Of a stretch of 64,000 nucleotides of DNA, positions 40,892 to 47,790 are shown piece after piece. Origin of the DNA: Microbacterium paraoxydans (GTDB taxonomy: Bacteria; Actinomycetota; Actinomycetes; Actinomycetales; Microbacteriaceae); NCBI RefSeq assembly GCF_020524545.1, contig NZ_JAIVLG010000002.1, positions 372,001 to 436,000 of the forward strand. Direction: 5' to 3'. The first letter of the stretch is position 1, and each line of letters starts with the position of its first letter. Position numbers and translations under genes: made by a program. The notes beneath the pieces were generated by a model. The model made no database searches, had not been told where the DNA came from, and saw only the letters and a list, made by a program, of their open reading frames with translations.

Positions 40892-42913
40892 CTATTCGCC
40901 GACGGGCGCGTCCTCGGTCGGAGCCGTGGCGCCATCTGCGGCCGCGGTGTCGGGCTCCTGCGAATCCTCTGCGGTGTCGGGCGCGGCGGCCTCCGGAGCC
41001 GTCTCCGGTGCCGTGGTCGCCGCAGGTTCGACCTCTGCGGGATCGGTCTCCTGCGGGGTGGACTCCGCGGGGCCCTGGTCCTCAGATGAGGGATCCGCGG
41101 GCGCCGTATCGTTCGAAGGCTCTTCTGCCGGTGTCTCTTCTGCCGGGGGTTGCTCGGTGTCGGATGTCTCTTCTGCCGGGGGGTCTTCGGTGTTGGGGTC
41201 TTCGGTGTTGGGGTCTTCGGTGTTCGGGTCCTCGGGGTCCGGAACCTCCCAGTCGCCCAGGAACCTGATCCCGATGTAGCCGCCCTCGCGGGTGAAGTCC
41301 AGGAGCGTGAGGTCGATCGATCCCGCCGGGTACCCCGAGGGCAGCGTGTGATGGACGGTGACCTTCGTCGCCTCGGGATCGGCGTTCTGTGCGGCTGAGG
41401 GCGAGAACACGAGTGTTCCCTGGCCGAACTCATCGAGGACGATGGTGTCGCCGCCCTCCGCGCTGTCGTCGAGGAGGCCGACGACGGTCGCGCCCGGCGC
41501 TCCGATGATGATCACGGGATAGTCCCCGACCTCGGGGTCCGCGGGGTCCACCGGAGGTACGGGGTCGACCGGCGGTGCGGGGTCGACCGGCTCGGGAGGC
41601 GTCACCGGTGTCACCGGCGTCACGGGAGATGTCTCGACCGGCGGAGCCTCGTCCGCGGCCGGCGTCTTTCTCTCCTCCACGGGCGGGGCGGGTGCGGGCG
41701 GCGAGGCGACCGGCTCGTCGATCACGACGGGCTCTTCGAGCGTCATCGACGCATCCGGTCCGACATCGGAGGTGATCGACGACGGGTCGGTGTCCCCGGC
41801 GCTGGGCAGGGACGTCTCCGGATTCGCTCCGGCGAGCCCGGGGAGGATCGTCGCCGCAGTCACGACCCCGGCCACGACCAGGGCCGCGGAACCCGCTCCC
41901 ACGAGCGCGCCCATCCCGGTGAACACTCCGCCGGAGGCACCCGCACCTCCGGCGCCGGCGCCACCACCGGAACCGGCACCGCTGCCGGACCCCGCGCCAC
42001 CGCCCGAAGCGGCGGAGCCGGTTGTGACGGCCCCGGCCCCTCCGTCGCCGCCGAAGACGGCACCCGGAATGCTGGATGGCATCGCAGCGAGCGCGACGAT
42101 GGGAGTGCCTGCGCCCTGCAAGGTCGCGAGGTAGCCCGAGGCTCCGGCGACCCCCAGCACGAGAGGAAGCAGGACGAGGGCGAGGCGCTGGGAGACGTCT
42201 TTGGCCTCTGCGGCGACGATCATGCAACGTGCGCAGTCGTCGAGGTGCAGCTCGAGTCTCTTGTGATCGCGCGTGCTGAGGTTGCCGCGCGAGTAGGCGC
42301 CCAGATGTTCGATGGCCCATCGGCAGTCGGAACCGTCGGCAGCACTGCGCAGGTGCGCCTGGATCCACGCCTCGCGGAGCCCTTCGCGGGCACGGAAGGC
42401 CAGCTGCGACACGGCACCGGACTTCATCCCGAGGAGGTGGCCGACTTCCTGCGGCTTCATCTGCTCGATCTCGGTGTACCAGAGCACTTCCTGCCAGCGC
42501 GTCGGGAGGCTGCGGAACGCCTGGGCGGTGAGGCTCCGGTCGAGCGCCTCGTTCGCCGCCTGGTCGGTGGTCTCGGGATCGACGACGGTGTCGAGTTCGT
42601 CGATCGTGGTCTCGCGTCGCGCCCGTCCCCAGCCGGCCGCGGTGTTGCGGATGCTCGTGAACAGGTAGGCGCGGAACGAGCCGTTCGGTCCGCCACCCTT
42701 GACGATCGCCTGGTAGATGCGTGTGTACGCTTCTTGCACCAGGTCGTCCGGGTCGATCGAGGACGTGATGGATCGGGCGACCGCGATGCCCGAGGGGTAG
42801 TGGCGTCGCCAGAGTTCCCCGAACGCCCCCGTGTCGCCTGAACGGGCGCGGAGGATCAGGTCGGCATCGCCGATCAGTTCGTCGTGGCTCGAGGTCTCTT
42901 CGTGCACAATCAT
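40892..42913 (-). CDS. ECF sigma factor fused to zinc finger, membrane segments and Pro/Glu-rich tail
   Basis: A 673-residue protein. Residues ~15-95 are sigma region 2 (DPDDLVQEAYTRIYQAI); ~125-185 are region 4 (PTRWQEVLWYTEIEQMKPQE...MKSGAVSQLAFRAREGLREAW). Residues 197-230 hold an anti-sigma-like zinc motif (C197, H223, C227, C230; HLDDCARC). Hydrophobic segments lie at ~245-267 and ~335-357, joined by a Gly/Ser/Ala linker. The tail contains a beta-rich stretch (~465-560) and Pro/Glu/Asp repeats including NTEDP. So sigma and a membrane-bound anti-sigma module are one chain, like ECF groups with C-terminal extensions. Two membrane segments would return the tail to the cytoplasm; if only one spans, the tail is outside. 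Its own promoter is probably at 42952-42980. Confidence 0.85.
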   Translation of the reverse strand: MIVHEETSSHDELIGDADLILRARSGDTGAFGELWRRHYPSGIAVARSITSSIDPDDLVQEAYTRIYQAIVKGGGPNGSFRAYLFTSIRNTAAGWGRARRETTIDELDTVVDPETTDQAANEALDRSLTAQAFRSLPTRWQEVLWYTEIEQMKPQEVGHLLGMKSGAVSQLAFRAREGLREAWIQAHLRSAADGSDCRWAIEHLGAYSRGNLSTRDHKRLELHLDDCARCMIVAAEAKDVSQRLALVLLPLVLGVAGASGYLATLQGAGTPIVALAAMPSSIPGAVFGGDGGAGAVTTGSAASGGGAGSGSGAGSGGGAGAGGAGASGGVFTGMGALVGAGSAALVVAGVVTAATILPGLAGANPETSLPSAGDTDPSSITSDVGPDASMTLEEPVVIDEPVASPPAPAPPVEERKTPAADEAPPVETSPVTPVTPVTPPEPVDPAPPVDPVPPVDPADPEVGDYPVIIIGAPGATVVGLLDDSAEGGDTIVLDEFGQGTLVFSPSAAQNADPEATKVTVHHTLPSGYPAGSIDLTLLDFTREGGYIGIRFLGDWEVPDPEDPNTEDPNTEDPNTEDPPAEETSDTEQPPAEETPAEEPSNDTAPADPSSEDQGPAESTPQETDPAEVEPAATTAPETAPEAAAPDTAEDSQEPDTAAADGATAPTEDAPVGE
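41186..41237 (-). repeat. 15-bp tandem repeat encoding NTEDP
   Basis: About three copies of GTCTTCGGTGTTGGG (plus strand), encoding repeated NTEDP in the sigma-factor tail. The unit is in frame, so copy number could vary without breaking the gene. Confidence 0.8.
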
Positions 42914-42951
42914 CCATCTGTCGCGGGGCGCGATTACGCCTCTACAGGGGA

Positions 42952-42980
42952 AGACGCGGGGAGGCGCCGCTCATTACGCG
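42952..42980 (-). promoter_or_regulatory. ECF-type promoter i, driving the sigma gene
   Basis: Minus strand CGCGTAATGA (42980-42971), 14 nt, then CGTCT (42956-42952), placed 38 nt before the sigma ATG at 42913. The same two blocks at the same spacing occur twice more on the plus strand. The layout (GTAAT, 16 nt, CGTC) fits ECF sigma promoters, pointing to autoregulation. Confidence 0.6.
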
Positions 42981-43116
42981 ACTTTCCCATCCTCTCGCGA
43001 ATCTCTCAGGGAAGCCACCTTTTCCCATGAAGTACGCAGAATCCCGGGGCGCGCGGCGGATGATTCGGCCGGCCTCCGAGCGCCGAGCCACTGTTCTTCG
43101 AAGAATTTCGGAAACA

Positions 43117-43145
43117 CGCGTAATGATTCCGGGGCGCGGACGTCT
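43117..43145 (+). promoter_or_regulatory. ECF-type promoter ii
   Basis: CGCGTAATGA (43117-43126), 14 nt, CGTCT (43141-43145), followed by CATCC. The sequence just upstream, CGAAGAATTTC (43099-43109), is also shared with promoter iii. It faces a structured, non-coding unit. Confidence 0.6.
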
Positions 43146-43151
43146 CATCCA

Positions 43152-43310
43152 TAGGACAGCCGAATAGGACTCCGGGGGCGGAGTCCAGGCGCTGCAGGTG
43201 AGCTGTGCTCGCGTGCGGCAGGGCGGGCCGGGGCCTCGGGGGAGGTATCCCGCCCGTCCGTGTCAAGACGGAGCGGGGCCGCCGTTCGGGGGAACGGCGG
43301 CCTCCCGCCC
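43152..43310 (+). ncRNA. Candidate structured RNA A
   Basis: A predicted transcript downstream of promoter ii. Hairpins: GGACTCCG/CGGAGTCC with a GGGG loop (43167-43186); GGGCGGG/CCCGCCC enclosing CCTC-GGGG-GAGG (43221-43255); TCCGT/ACGGA (43257-43272); and an 11-bp terminator-like stem (43277-43302). It is related to unit B 241 bp downstream. The 5' and 3' ends are guesses, and RNA from here has not been shown. Confidence 0.4.
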
Positions 43311-43357
43311 GCGTCGGATGAGCGATGGAAGGAATTTCTCGAAGAATTTCACGAAGT

Positions 43358-43386
43358 CGCGTAATGAATCGATGAGACGGTCGTCT
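43358..43386 (+). promoter_or_regulatory. ECF-type promoter iii
   Basis: CGCGTAATGA (43358-43367), 14 nt, CGTCT (43382-43386), followed by CATCA, 241 bp downstream of promoter ii. Preceded by the shared CGAAGAATTTC (43340-43350). Confidence 0.6.
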
Positions 43387-43392
43387 CATCAC

Positions 43393-43557
43393 TGAGAGAC
43401 AGCCAAGACGAACTCCTCCGGGGGGCGGAGTTCAGGCACTGGTGCGAGGGGCAAATGCACCGGTGGGCCGGTCGGGACCCTCGGGGGAGGAGATCCCGGC
43501 CGCCCGTCTCCGGAGGGGACGGGGCCGCCGATCTGGGGAACGGCGGCCCCCCGTCCC
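43393..43557 (+). ncRNA. Candidate structured RNA B
   Basis: A diverged copy of unit A downstream of promoter iii. Hairpins: GAACTCC/GGAGTTC (43410-43433), GGCCGG/CCGGCC enclosing CCTC/GAGG (43466-43501), CCGTCTCC/GGGGACGG (43504-43522) and a terminator-like stem GGGGCCGCCG/CGGCGGCCCC extended by GGGAC/GTCCC (43516-43557). Stem 1 differs from unit A by a paired G:C to A:T change. Spacing changes between units are not multiples of three, against protein coding. Confidence 0.4.
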
Positions 43558-43607
43558 GCACAGGCACGACCGGAGCACAGAGCCGTGCGTCGCGCGCGAC
43601 ACAGGAC

Positions 43608-44777
43608 CTAGGGGAGCCGGGGTCCCGACCAGACGCCCGCGACGCGCAGCTCCGCGTCCAACAGCACGATGTCGCCGAGCATTCCGGGGCGCAGGCCGCC
43701 GAGCAGAGCGCCGCGTCCGATCGCCCTCGCCGGGGTCTCGGTGAGCGCCCGCACGGCTTCTTCGAGGGGCACCCCGGCAGCGACTGCGCGCTGCAGCGCC
43801 ACGTCCTGGGTGAGCGTGGAGCCGGCGATCGAGCCCGTGTCGTCCGCCCTGGCCACGCCATCCTTCACCGTCACACCGACCGCTCCGAGGTCGTAGTGGC
43901 CATCCGCGCTTCCTGCCGCAGCCATCGCATCGGTGATCAGCGCCACCCGACCAGGGGCCGCGTCGAACACGAGCTTGACGACGTGCGGATCGAGATGCAC
44001 GTCGTCGGCGATCGCCTCCAGCACCACGCGGTGATCCGCCGCCGCGGCCAGCACCGGGCCCGGCGCGCGATGGTGGATGCCCGGCATCGCGTTGAAGGCG
44101 TGGGTGAGGATCGACGCGCCGGCCTCGAACGCGGCGACCGCCGTCGTGGCATCCGCGTCGGTGTGGCCCACCGCGGCCGCCGCGCCGGCGGCCACGATCT
44201 GCCTGACCGCGTCGAGTCCGCCGGGGAGCTCGGGCGCGATCGTCACCTGGCGGACCGTGCCTCGTCCCGCGTCCAGCAGACGGGCGACGTCCGCGGCGAC
44301 CGGATGGCGCAGCAGCGTCGGCTCGTGAGCGCCGTGGTGACCGGGATCGAGGAACGGGCCCTCGAGATGCGACCCGAGGATATCGGCGTCCGTCTCGGTC
44401 AGATCGGCGATCGTCGCGACGCTCCGGGCGAGCGAATCCACCGACGCCGTCACGAGGGAAACCACGGCACGGGTGGTGCCGTGCGCGCGGTGCAGGTCGC
44501 GACCGATCCGGATGGCGTCGACGCCGTCGTCGAACGACGCTCCCGCTCCGCCGTGCCCGTGGATGTCCACGAAGCCCGGGGTGAGCAGCGCCCCGGCGCC
44601 GGCGATGGACGAGGCGTCGACGATCACATCCGCCGGTGTCCAGTCCGAACCGGTGCCGCGGATCGCGACGGTGCCGTCCTCGATCCGGACCCAGGCGTCT
44701 TCGGTGATGGTGCCGCCGTCGACGACGCGCGCCGAATGGATGACCAGCGAGCCGGTCGCGGAGGAGTGGGTGCTCAA
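43608..44777 (-). CDS. nagA: N-acetylglucosamine-6-phosphate deacetylase
   Basis: A 389-residue amidohydrolase that removes acetate from GlcNAc-6-phosphate. The metal and catalytic residues are visible: VDIHGHGG (H73, H75), HLEGPF (E139), AAVGHTDA (H205), THAFNAM (H226) and ITDAM (catalytic D283). The ATG at 44777 overlaps the stop of the upstream hexosaminidase by 4 bp, giving a two-gene operon. It supplies the substrate for NagB. The terminal hairpin of RNA unit B lies beyond its stop and could terminate it too. Confidence 0.94.
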   Translation of the reverse strand: MSTHSSATGSLVIHSARVVDGGTITEDAWVRIEDGTVAIRGTGSDWTPADVIVDASSIAGAGALLTPGFVDIHGHGGAGASFDDGVDAIRIGRDLHRAHGTTRAVVSLVTASVDSLARSVATIADLTETDADILGSHLEGPFLDPGHHGAHEPTLLRHPVAADVARLLDAGRGTVRQVTIAPELPGGLDAVRQIVAAGAAAAVGHTDADATTAVAAFEAGASILTHAFNAMPGIHHRAPGPVLAAAADHRVVLEAIADDVHLDPHVVKLVFDAAPGRVALITDAMAAAGSADGHYDLGAVGVTVKDGVARADDTGSIAGSTLTQDVALQRAVAAGVPLEEAVRALTETPARAIGRGALLGGLRPGMLGDIVLLDAELRVAGVWSGPRLP

Positions 44778-46285
44778 CGTTCGCTCCAGGGGATTTCTTC
44801 TGCAGGGTGGAAGTCGATCCCCTCAGCCTTCCACAGCGGTGCGAGTGCTCCGACACGGACGCGGAAGGAGTCCCAGGTGCGCGCCGGGCCCTCCTGCGGC
44901 GACCAGGCTACCTCGGCCTGGGCGGCGGCACGGGGGAAGACGAGCTGCTGCACCTCGTCGAGGGTGCGGGTGGTCTCAGACCAGAGCGGGGCTTCGACGC
45001 CGAGGATCGCCGCCTCCGGCACATCCAGGACGGCTGTCGGCTCCCACTCATACGCCGAGCGGACGTCGATGATGGCGGCCCAGGTGAGGCCGAGCGGGAA
45101 GTCCTCGGAGTACTTCATGTCGAGGTACGTGACGTTCGCCGCCGACATGATCAGCGCGCCCCCGCGCTCGACGAAGTGGGCGGCCTCTTCGGCGTGTGCG
45201 CCCTCGGGCGTGGTCTTGCCCCAGTACTGCCCGACGGTCCCCTCGGCGATCCGCGCGGCGGAGCCCATCTCGTGCCAGGCCACCGGGGTCTTGCCTGCTT
45301 CGACGACGATCGCGGTGGCACGCTCGGCGAACAGGTCGAAGTCTGCCTGCGGGGTACCGAGGGACTCGTCGCCTCCGACGTGGATGTAGGGCCCCGGAGT
45401 CATCTCGGCGAGCTCGCGGACGACGTCGCGCACGAAGTCGTAGGTGCGCTCCTCGTGGATGCGGACGCTCGAGTGCCCGACGCCCCAGCCCAGGTAGGTC
45501 TCGCCCGCGACGGGCAGCGGCTGGCCGAGGCGTGCGGACTCCGCGATCAGCGTGTCGTTCAGCACCGGTGCCTCGACGAGTTCGGGGTAGGCGACGCCGA
45601 TCGCATGAGTGTGGCCCGGCAGGTCGATCTCGGGGATCACGATCATGTGATGCGCGGCGGCGTGGGCGACGATCTCGCGGTAGTCGTCCTTCGTGTAGAA
45701 GCCGCCGGGATCGCCGTTCGCGGAGGTGCCTGCCGAAAGCTCGGTCAGCAGCGGCCAGGAATCGATGTGCACGCGCCACCCCTGGTCGTCGGTCAGGTGC
45801 AGATGCAGGTGGTTGAACTTGAGAGCGCTCGCGCTGTCGATGAACTTCTTCACGTCGTCGACACCGAAGAAGTGCCGGGCGACATCGAGCATGACGCCGC
45901 GTCGGGCGAAGCGGGGGGAGTCGGCGACGTCGGCGCCGAGCAGTGCCCAGCCGGAGTCGTCCTGGCGCAGCAGCTGCAGCAGCGTCTGGACGCCGTAGAA
46001 GAGCCCGGCTTCGTCGGCGCCGACGATGACGGCACGATCGCCGATCTCGAGTGTGTAGCCCTCGGCGGCCGAGGAGGTGGGATCGACGAGGAGCTCGATC
46101 TCGGCGGACGCGTCGTGGACGAGAGGGAGACGGATTCCGGTGCGACGCTCGATCGCTTCGATCAGCTGGACGGCGGCGGGGGAGGAGCCGAGCACACGCG
46201 TCGTCGCGGTGAGCGGCATCCGTCCTTCCCGTGCGACGGCGGAGACGGGCGCGGGGACGAGCGGAAGCGTATGAGGAAGGACCAT
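44774..46285 (-). CDS. Cytoplasmic beta-N-acetylhexosaminidase (GH20)
   Basis: A 503-residue GH20 enzyme releasing terminal GlcNAc or GalNAc by substrate-assisted catalysis. After a GH20b N-domain come GVMLDVARHFFGVDDVKKFID, HLHLTDDQGW and the catalytic pair in YIHVGGDESLG (D306, E307). It has no signal peptide, so it works on imported sugars. The start ATG 46285 (MVLPHTLPLVP) is 6 nt from TAGGTT on the minus strand (leaderless), preferred over TTG 46291. It is the first gene of the nagA operon and a second, separate GH20 besides the fusion at 32412. Confidence 0.93.
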   Translation of the reverse strand: MVLPHTLPLVPAPVSAVAREGRMPLTATTRVLGSSPAAVQLIEAIERRTGIRLPLVHDASAEIELLVDPTSSAAEGYTLEIGDRAVIVGADEAGLFYGVQTLLQLLRQDDSGWALLGADVADSPRFARRGVMLDVARHFFGVDDVKKFIDSASALKFNHLHLHLTDDQGWRVHIDSWPLLTELSAGTSANGDPGGFYTKDDYREIVAHAAAHHMIVIPEIDLPGHTHAIGVAYPELVEAPVLNDTLIAESARLGQPLPVAGETYLGWGVGHSSVRIHEERTYDFVRDVVRELAEMTPGPYIHVGGDESLGTPQADFDLFAERATAIVVEAGKTPVAWHEMGSAARIAEGTVGQYWGKTTPEGAHAEEAAHFVERGGALIMSAANVTYLDMKYSEDFPLGLTWAAIIDVRSAYEWEPTAVLDVPEAAILGVEAPLWSETTRTLDEVQQLVFPRAAAQAEVAWSPQEGPARTWDSFRVRVGALAPLWKAEGIDFHPAEEIPWSER

Positions 46286-46515: not shown

Positions 46516-47790
46516 ATGACCGACCGTTACTTCAACGCCCCCCTCGCCGAAGTCGATCCCGAGATCGCTCAGGTCCTCGACCGTGAGCTGAAGCGCCAGC
46601 AGACCTTCCTCGAGATGATCGCGTCCGAGAACTTCGTGCCGGTCTCGGTGCTGCAGTCGCAGGGCTCGGTGCTCACGAACAAGTACGCCGAGGGCTACCC
46701 CGGCCGTCGGTACTACGGCGGCTGTGAAGAGGTCGACGTCGCCGAGTCCCTCGCGATCGAGCGGGCGAAGAGCCTGTTCGGCGCCGAGTTCGCGAACGTG
46801 CAGCCGCACTCCGGTGCCTCCGCCAACGCCGCCGTCCTGCATGCCATCGCCCGCCCCGGCGACACCCTGCTCGGCCTCTCCCTCGACCAGGGCGGCCACC
46901 TGACGCACGGCATGAAGATCAACTTCTCGGGTCGTCTCTACGACATCGTCGCCTACGGCGTGGACCCGGAGACCTCGACGATCGACATGGCGGAGGTGCG
47001 CCGTCTCGCGATCGAGCACCGCCCGAAGGTCATCATCGCCGGCTGGTCCGCCTACCCGCGCACGATGGACTTCGCGGCGTTCCGCGAGATCGCCGACGAG
47101 GTCGGGGCGCTGCTCTGGGTCGACATGGCGCACTTCGCGGGGCTGGTCGCCGCGGGCCTGCACCCGAACCCGGTGCCCCACGCGCACGTCGTCTCGTCGA
47201 CCGTGCACAAGACGATCGGCGGGCCGCGCTCGGGCTTCATCCTCACCAACGACGCCGACATCGCCAAGAAGATCAACTCCGCCGTGTTCCCGGGCCAGCA
47301 GGGTGGGCCGCTCATGCACGTGATCGCCGCCAAGGCGACCGCGTTCAAGCTCGCAGGCACCCCCGAGTTCAAGGAGCGCCAGGAGCGCGTGCTGCGCGGT
47401 GCCGCTCTCATCGCCGAGCGCCTGTCGAAGCAGGACCTGAAGGACGCCGGCATCGCCGTGCGCTCGGGTGGCACGGATGTGCACCTGGTGCTGGTCGACC
47501 TGCGTGACGCCGAGATCGACGGCAAGCAGGCCGAAGACCTCCTGCACGACATCCACATCACCGTGAACCGCAACGCGGTCCCGAACGACCCGCGCCCGCC
47601 GATGGTCACCTCGGGTCTGCGCATCGGCACGCCCGCCCTCGCGACCCGTGGTTTCGGGGACGCCGAGTTCACCGAGGTCGCCGACATCATCGCGCTCGCG
47701 CTGCTCCCCGGCGCGGATGTGGAGGCGTTGCGTGCCCGGGTCGACGCGCTCGCCGCAGCGTTCCCGCTCTACCCGGACCTGCAGCAGTGA
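46516..47790 (+). CDS. glyA: serine hydroxymethyltransferase
   Basis: A 424-residue PLP enzyme that converts serine and THF to glycine and 5,10-methylene-THF. The PLP lysine is K232 in [17 protein letters not shown]; other blocks are [34 protein letters not shown] at the N-terminus and [12 protein letters not shown] near the C-terminus. A good ribosome site (AAAGGAG) precedes the ATG. It is behind the ZTP riboswitch and overlaps folD by 4 bp. Confidence 0.97.

Follow-up and report, generated by a model that had tools for sequence, protein, structure and literature searches.

A fused ECF sigma factor gene of Microbacterium diverges from a structured RNA family that may act as a sponge of 6C RNA

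In Microbacterium, a gene for a fused ECF sigma factor faces a conserved divergent pair of promoters, one reading into the sigma gene and one into an RNA, each with a 14-base spacer (N14), and this RNA is a structured non-coding family with covarying secondary structure. Judged from sequence, the RNA is very probably a small RNA controlled by the sigma factor. We also lean towards reading the whole locus as an ECF-sigma module that regulates itself and that, in the source genome (G000), would have as its main output a non-coding product, namely an RNA that sponges 6C. The fullest version is rather doubtful: here a tethered ECF sigma factor would have only RNA as its output besides itself, and the new RNA family would be a natural antagonist of 6C, with up to four G-loops kissing the C-loops. 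These readings stand on the motif, its conservation and spacing, the structure of the RNA and its linkage to the sigma gene, the presence of both RNA genes and the complementarity between them, all of which were observed. The window below means the whole stretch of 64,000 nt that was analysed, and coordinates refer to it.

The proposed mechanism would begin at the membrane, where the sigma factor, to judge from its architecture, would be held and kept inactive by its own fused zinc-finger part. Activation by proteolysis is expected for ECF48, ECF52 and ECF53 (PMC8999054), and release of the Microbacterium sigma factor by proteolysis is carried over from this expectation. Once released, it would read promoters of the form CGTRATGA-N14-CGTCT; the inward promoter would give more sigma factor, and the divergent promoters would give one or two copies of an RNA of about 160 nt, whose production is itself a prediction. 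The RNA loops with GGGG(G) runs most likely base-pair with C-rich RNA, and among the candidate partners the 6C-like RNA beside acs ranks first. If it binds 6C as we suppose, the RNA would act as a sponge induced by the sigma factor and would free the targets of 6C.

If this is true, an envelope or sugar signal would be coupled to the 6C regulon, and a dedicated, signal-induced partner would offer a handle on 6C RNA, which is widespread in Actinobacteria. It would also add an actinobacterial, fused and membrane-bound sigma factor to the ECF sigma factors that drive small RNAs. The RNA adds a four-way-junction family that Rfam 15 does not hold, and what is predicted is simple, consisting of one promoter pattern, two RNAs and defined loop pairs.

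The promoter-like motif CGCGTAATGA-N14-CGTCT is present three times between the sigma gene and a nagA-like gene (43608..44777, minus strand, convergent with the RNAs; the name is a reading only). One copy reads into the sigma gene (42952..42980, minus strand; close relatives usually have CGTGATGA-N14-CGTCT), and two read away from it on the plus strand, in front of RNA copy 1 (43117..43145) and RNA copy 2 (43358..43386). An A/T-rich stretch lies directly 5' of the first outward promoter (43095..43116, plus strand); part of it is common to copy 2, and it may be UP-element-like. Another A/T-rich stretch lies 5' of the second outward promoter (43339..43357, plus strand). The earlier note had reported the three motifs at these positions, and we confirmed that blocks and spacing are identical.

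With up to 2 mismatches allowed, three matches were found in the window, all of them exact, against 0.78 expected, and 3 of 100 shuffled windows reached this number. Across the 3.58-Mb genome, the exact 13-base core gave 3 matches, all in the gap between sigma gene and nagA, and the reversed control gave 0. When the core was extended by one base and 1 mismatch was allowed, the same three matches were obtained (reversed control 1). A motif spread at random density over the genome was the outcome that the earlier note had named as speaking against its reading, and the result favours the reading. The looser pattern CGTRAT-N16-CGTCT had 9 genome matches versus 1 in the control; the 6 additional matches are probably chance, because all of them lie inside long open frames. 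The occurrence of three motifs in the gap exceeds chance. The strong candidate promoters of the sigma factor in the source genome are only its own promoter and the two RNA promoters.

The sigma gene (40892..42913, minus strand) encodes a protein of 673 aa in which an ECF sigma factor and an anti-sigma-like zinc-finger domain are fused, with two hydrophobic segments and an acidic, Pro-rich tail. Sigma70 region 2 (residues 34-93; 42635..42814, minus strand; Pfam PF04542, E 1.6e-8) and the zf-HC2 zinc finger (residues 197-230; 42224..42325, minus strand; PF13490, E 2.2e-7) score above their cut-offs, and Sigma70 region 4 (residues 131-177; 42383..42523, minus strand; PF08281, E 4.5e-5) is just under it, with 23.5 bits for a cut-off of 25.7. 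TIGR02937 covers the whole sigma part with 76.7 bits versus a cut-off of 42.9. The protein has sigma regions 2 and 4 only, as the definition of ECF requires. The hydrophobic segments, at about residues 243-265 and 334-360, were placed by eye from the alignment, in which the acidic, Pro-rich tail is variable. In the 5' leader of the gene (42914-42945 of the window, and in relatives), an apparently conserved GC hairpin was seen by eye just 5' of the start codon, together with no clear Shine-Dalgarno sequence; translational control is possible.

Group ECF52, to which SCO4117 of Streptomyces coelicolor belongs, has a sigma domain, a pfam13490 zinc finger, a transmembrane region and a Pro-rich extension; it is described from Actinobacteria only, and self-activation has been proposed for it (PMC5826349, PMC8999054). 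The Microbacterium sigma factor has the domain order of SCO4117 (PMC5826349, PMC8999054), with a fused zf-HC2, hydrophobic segments and a Pro-rich extension, the last two by eye. SCO4117, however, has a carbohydrate-binding domain, whereas Pfam at E <= 0.1 found none in the Microbacterium protein and nothing beyond zf-HC2, and the motif reported for ECF52, CSGYN-17-SRHA, differs from the CGTRAT-N16-CGTCT found here (PMC5826349, PMC8999054). For these two reasons we call the protein ECF52-like, as its sequence suggests, and do not file it as a member of ECF52. A further difference is that the term "small RNA" has 0 occurrences in the main text of PMC5826349. There is a second sigma-zinc-finger fusion in the source genome, 45% identical, at G000:C2:64513-65271 (locus L169, G000:C2:63300-66600), which sits behind an ORF with an LPxTG-like surface-anchor end.

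Using residues 1-265 of the sigma factor as query against 149 sampled genomes of the genus, matches at E <= 1e-30 were obtained in 108 genomes, and an orthologue of at least 59% identity was identified in 97. Upstream regions were taken for 86 of these 97 orthologues (30 close and 56 more distant), and 85 were used after one was cut by a contig end (L009). The relaxed motif with N14 was found outward at 78 sites in 70 of the 85 regions and inward at 46 sites in 46 regions; other spacings from 6 to 23 gave only 0-3 sites each, and the reversed control gave 0. By this relaxed pattern, the outward site is missing in 15 and the inward site in 39 of the 85 regions. Among the inward promoters of the 30 close loci, CGTGATGA is the usual form, and among the outward ones CGTAATGA; tandem outward units (x2) are present in 7 of the 30. 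Named records gave a similar count, with the outward promoter in 69, the inward in 59 and both in 52 of 80; they are the best 80 of 140 relatives, with Microbacterium sp. CBA3102 (96%) as the nearest of them, the inward pattern used for them was slightly looser, and their genomes overlap in part with those of the 85 regions, so that neither count is independent of the other. Beyond the genus, the inward site was seen in 16 and the outward site in 6 of 26 sigma loci read, mostly in CGTCAT forms. The locus is also present, with 74% identity, in a record under the name Planococcus sp. APC 4015 (L228), which is probably mislabelled or contaminated.

Behind each outward promoter lies one copy of a single structured RNA, a point that is absent from the earlier note. 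The RNA is about 155-165 nt long and is present as tandem copies in the source genome, and the two stretches of about 240-250 bases, each made up of an outward promoter and its downstream part, have a mean column identity of 81%. RNA copy 1 (43146..43304, plus strand, start estimated at about 43151) is more diverged and scores 81.2 bits with our model R1, and RNA copy 2 (43387..43550, plus strand, start estimated at about 43393) scores 155.4 bits, both copies being in the training set of the model. The parts 3' of the outward promoters fold better than shuffles, with z of -5.3 for copy 1 and -4.0 for copy 2. Copy 2 shows a four-way junction closed by P0 (P1, P2, P3), followed by a terminal hairpin P4, and this structure has covariation. 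No Rfam 15 family matched the RNA copies above its gathering threshold; the 5 matches at E <= 5 were all weak, and the strongest had 21 bits versus 70 needed. The copies look like free RNAs, because the next plus-strand ORF read as a gene begins only at 46516.

The 50-pair structure (P0, P1-P3, P4) was obtained by RNAalifold from alignment A2 itself, which contains 33 of 36 RNA copies (L018_1 and L020_1 were excluded as diverged, and L010_2 as near-identical). On A2, 93.0% of the cells are paired in this structure, and the signal falls away when the structure is slid. Two-sided changes occur in 25 of the 50 pairs versus 12.2 in shuffles, and 0 of 500 shuffles reached 25 (kinship not corrected). 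The model had 65 matches in the named loci, in 56 of 80, and when 65 sequences were fitted to it, two-sided changes occurred in 41 of the 50 pairs versus 20.0, again with kinship not corrected. The stems of the RNA vary in A2, and the loops CCGGGGGGCGG, CUCGGGGGAGG and CUGGGGA are nearly invariant. That the G runs of the loops hardly change while the stems drift points to base pairing with a C-rich RNA or to a protein partner.

Model R1 at E <= 0.001 matched 46 of the 149 genomes of the genus, and 45 after a false positive was removed (G062, L102), where the match is the 3' end of a coding gene. Training sequences, chosen via their sigma gene, came from 29 of the 45. Among the 16 non-training genomes, 15 have a sigma orthologue, and in the exception, G127, the RNA is cut by a contig end. 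There was no R1 match at E <= 0.001 in 53 of the 97 genomes with a sigma orthologue; many of these 53 keep the promoter and G-loop hairpins that are too diverged for R1, and in at least four loci (L048, L096, L098, L103) no RNA was seen by eye beside the sigma orthologue. Across the family, R1 matched 4 of 299 genomes: 3 belong to the genus, and the fourth match is marginal (E 0.008). The RNA is therefore either missing from other genera or has diverged there beyond the reach of the model. Two genomes have further, unlinked RNA copies with their own CGTRATGA promoter, L099 (G133:C15) and L100 (G083:C2), and in these copies several hairpins are capped with UGGGGA.

6C RNA (RF01066) is an actinobacterial small RNA with hairpins that carry homopolymer loops. 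It is said, in the title of work by Mai et al. in 2019, to bind mRNAs through its C-rich loops without chaperones. The function of 6C is counted among the questions to be understood (PMC9569102). Model RF01066 matched 9 of 38 genomes, with the source genome not among them, but an absence of 6C from the source genome was rejected: the neighbourhood of acs (the name is a reading) holds a 6C-like RNA, so the apparent absence is a threshold effect. This placement of the 6C gene was first found in G013. By eye, a 6C-like RNA lies beside acs in 29 of the 30 RNA-bearing genomes checked, out of the 45, and the acs locus of the 30th (L251) ends at a contig edge. With Rfam on 20 of the 30 acs loci (L251 included), 4 reached 6C at E <= 0.5 and none at the cut-off. 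The 6C-like RNAs of L252-L280 fall short of the RF01066 threshold at each of the 19 assessable loci scored, and the model seems to miss this clade. The 6C-like RNA has two hairpins with C runs, in the source genome GAUUCCCCCAAUC and CAUUCCCCCCGUGA, and its loops there are UUCCCCC and UUCCCCCCG.

Between the nearly invariant GGGG(G) loops of the RNA and the CCCCC(C) loops of the 6C-like RNA there is complementarity. In RNA copy 2 (plus strand), the P1 loop CGGGGGG (43419..43425) is complementary to CCCCCCG of hairpin 2 of the 6C-like RNA, the P3 loop GGGGGA (43483..43488) to UCCCCC, and the P4 loop GGGGAA (43535..43540) to UUCCCC. Pairing was measured with a home-made score, which takes helices of 6-9 bp with an opening cost on both sides, and the genomes compared are related. 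The count of accessible sites covered 35 RNA copies in 28 of the 30 genomes (G041, where no 6C was seen, and G096 were left out) and gave 3.54 accessible 6C sites per RNA copy, whereas the 1161 local tiles averaged 0.44. No local tile equals the best RNA copy in 26 of the 28 genomes, and in each of the other two 1 of 42 tiles does. In the window, 1 of 1162 tiles does as well as RNA copy 2; copy 1 is a weak partner, matched by 33 of these tiles. The best 6C-pairing tile of the window (45761-45925, plus strand, GCGGGGGGA) lies opposite the coding strand of a gene read as hexosaminidase, and is probably there by chance.

The best single 6C site is not exceptional, at -7.8 for copy 2 and -5.6 for copy 1, where the lines for the best 5% and 1% of 770 tiles are -7.1 and -9.6; copy 2 is within the best 5% but not the best 1%, and copy 1 misses the 5% line. 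Matched pairs of RNA and 6C did slightly better, averaging -29.6 versus -28.4 for mismatched pairs (permutation 0.017, 31 pairs from related genomes). Letter-shuffled RNAs averaged -11.4 against 6C, and 5% of them reached the matched mean. Among the three most diverged pairs, the genome's own 6C is the better partner for the RNAs of G013 and G018, and a worse one than mismatched 6C RNAs for that of G011. G018 has GGGGGGAAC in the RNA and GUUCCCCCC in its own 6C; in G022, loop 2 of 6C is changed and the P1 loop of the RNA has no answering change. Complementarity alone does not single out 6C, because G runs pair with any C run. As a single partner, 6C is still the best hypothesis by sequence; we tentatively regard the RNA as a possible 6C sponge and 6C antagonist, at somewhat below even odds.

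The main alternative, serious though rather unlikely in our view, is that the RNA pairs not with 6C but with C-rich sites in mRNAs of envelope or sugar genes, and is a post-transcriptional arm like MicA/RybB or GsrN. The module evidence, that is covariation, divergent promoters and co-occurrence with the sigma gene, is the same for this explanation; loops rich in G serve as pairing surfaces in general, the locus adjoins amino-sugar genes (names by reading), and RNAs of the GsrN type are typically encoded close to their ECF sigma factor (PMC5869019). However, the layout with several loops that repeat one motif, and the density of accessible 6C sites, suit a sponge better than a small RNA with a single seed.

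The Microbacterium RNA is not like 6C itself, since it has complementary G runs, is longer and lies outside Rfam; it would be a partner of 6C, not a member of its family. To our knowledge, MicA, RybB and MicL are not encoded divergently from the sigma gene. These RpoE-dependent small RNAs resemble the RNA proposed here as an ECF-driven post-transcriptional arm, but they belong to Gammaproteobacteria and have mRNA targets (PMC8103513). GsrN of Caulobacter and its relatives is ECF-controlled (EcfG/SigT), is typically encoded near the sigma gene and acts through an exposed loop, and its predicted homologues in Rhizobiaceae have a G-rich loop (PMC5869019). The likeness is that of a small RNA under an ECF sigma factor, encoded close by and with an exposed loop; GsrN differs in belonging to Alphaproteobacteria, in having one C-rich loop and mRNA targets, and in an unfused sigma factor (PMC5869019). 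In Bacillus subtilis, an RNA sponge titrates the small RNA RoxS (PMC8216469), an action like that proposed for the Microbacterium RNA, but no sponge that targets 6C, or that is itself the output of an ECF sigma factor in Actinobacteria, is among the matches listed. Neither a module of fused ECF sigma factor and small RNA nor a 6C sponge was found among the open-access literature matches listed, by titles and starts of abstracts; the terms "6C sRNA" and "sponge" are both present in PMC12395582, there in titles of references.

The pattern CGTRATGA-N14-CGTCTC was found in 54 of the 149 genomes versus one match of the reversed control, and 51 of these 54 genomes have a sigma orthologue. The motif occurs without an orthologue in G127, G124 and G070, and the RNA in G127. 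These genomes, and the second related sigma factor of the source genome, would suit promoters read by another sigma factor and not by the neighbouring one. We regard this as improbable: the sigma gene and the RNA promoters are divergently linked, an orthologue accompanies the motif in nearly all genomes, the RNA of G127 is cut by a contig end, and CGTNAT-N16-CGTCT was not seen upstream of the second sigma gene. The earlier note had proposed that the sigma factor activates itself and drives two extra transcripts. We likewise infer this, and the proposal gains support from the divergent promoters with fixed spacing, the co-occurrence of motif and sigma gene and the two paralogous structured RNAs.

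It is very unlikely that the RNA is a sponge of the protein CsrA, with GGA hairpins like CsrB/RsmZ, and we set this low because more than half of the RNA genomes are without CsrA. The source genome does have csrA, and CsrA is present in 21 of 45 RNA genomes versus 17 of 104 others (Fisher 2e-4, kinship not corrected), but it is missing in 24 of the 45, and the loops are kept there, for example in G005, G066 and G117. The CsrA site is A(N)GGA, and the loops are CGGGGGA / CUGGGGA. The 7 tandem-unit genomes among the 30 close loci (G000, G002, G021, G023, G029, G060, G108) all have CsrA, which is present in only 38 of 149 genomes; kinship may explain this. That the hairpins are a terminator or spacer of nagA, or a cis-element, and not a free RNA, is hardly credible: nagA has its 3' end towards the ends of the RNAs, and the terminal hairpin could work in either direction, but a separate promoter with fixed spacing stands before each RNA copy, the two unlinked copies in other genomes also have such a promoter, and the next gene-like ORF on the plus strand is remote.

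Away from the sigma loci, 27 motif sites were counted by hand, and 19 of them, the RNA copies L099 and L100 included, were examined; L163, taken along with these, is itself a sigma locus. Among the 17 others, all judged by eye, 7 precede ORFs that look secreted or surface-exposed (L150, L156, L157, L159, L160, L161, L164) and 2 precede small membrane-like proteins (L148, L153); 1 looks coding (L162) and 5 have no clear reading (L149, L151, L152, L158, L165). Since the motif precedes secreted-looking ORFs in other genomes, the regulon is not RNA-only everywhere, and it may be broader in those Microbacterium genomes. The last 2 of the 17 (L154 in G126, L155 in G135) precede a shared hairpin-rich stretch that ends with a hairpin and a T run, which is perhaps a second sigma-dependent RNA.
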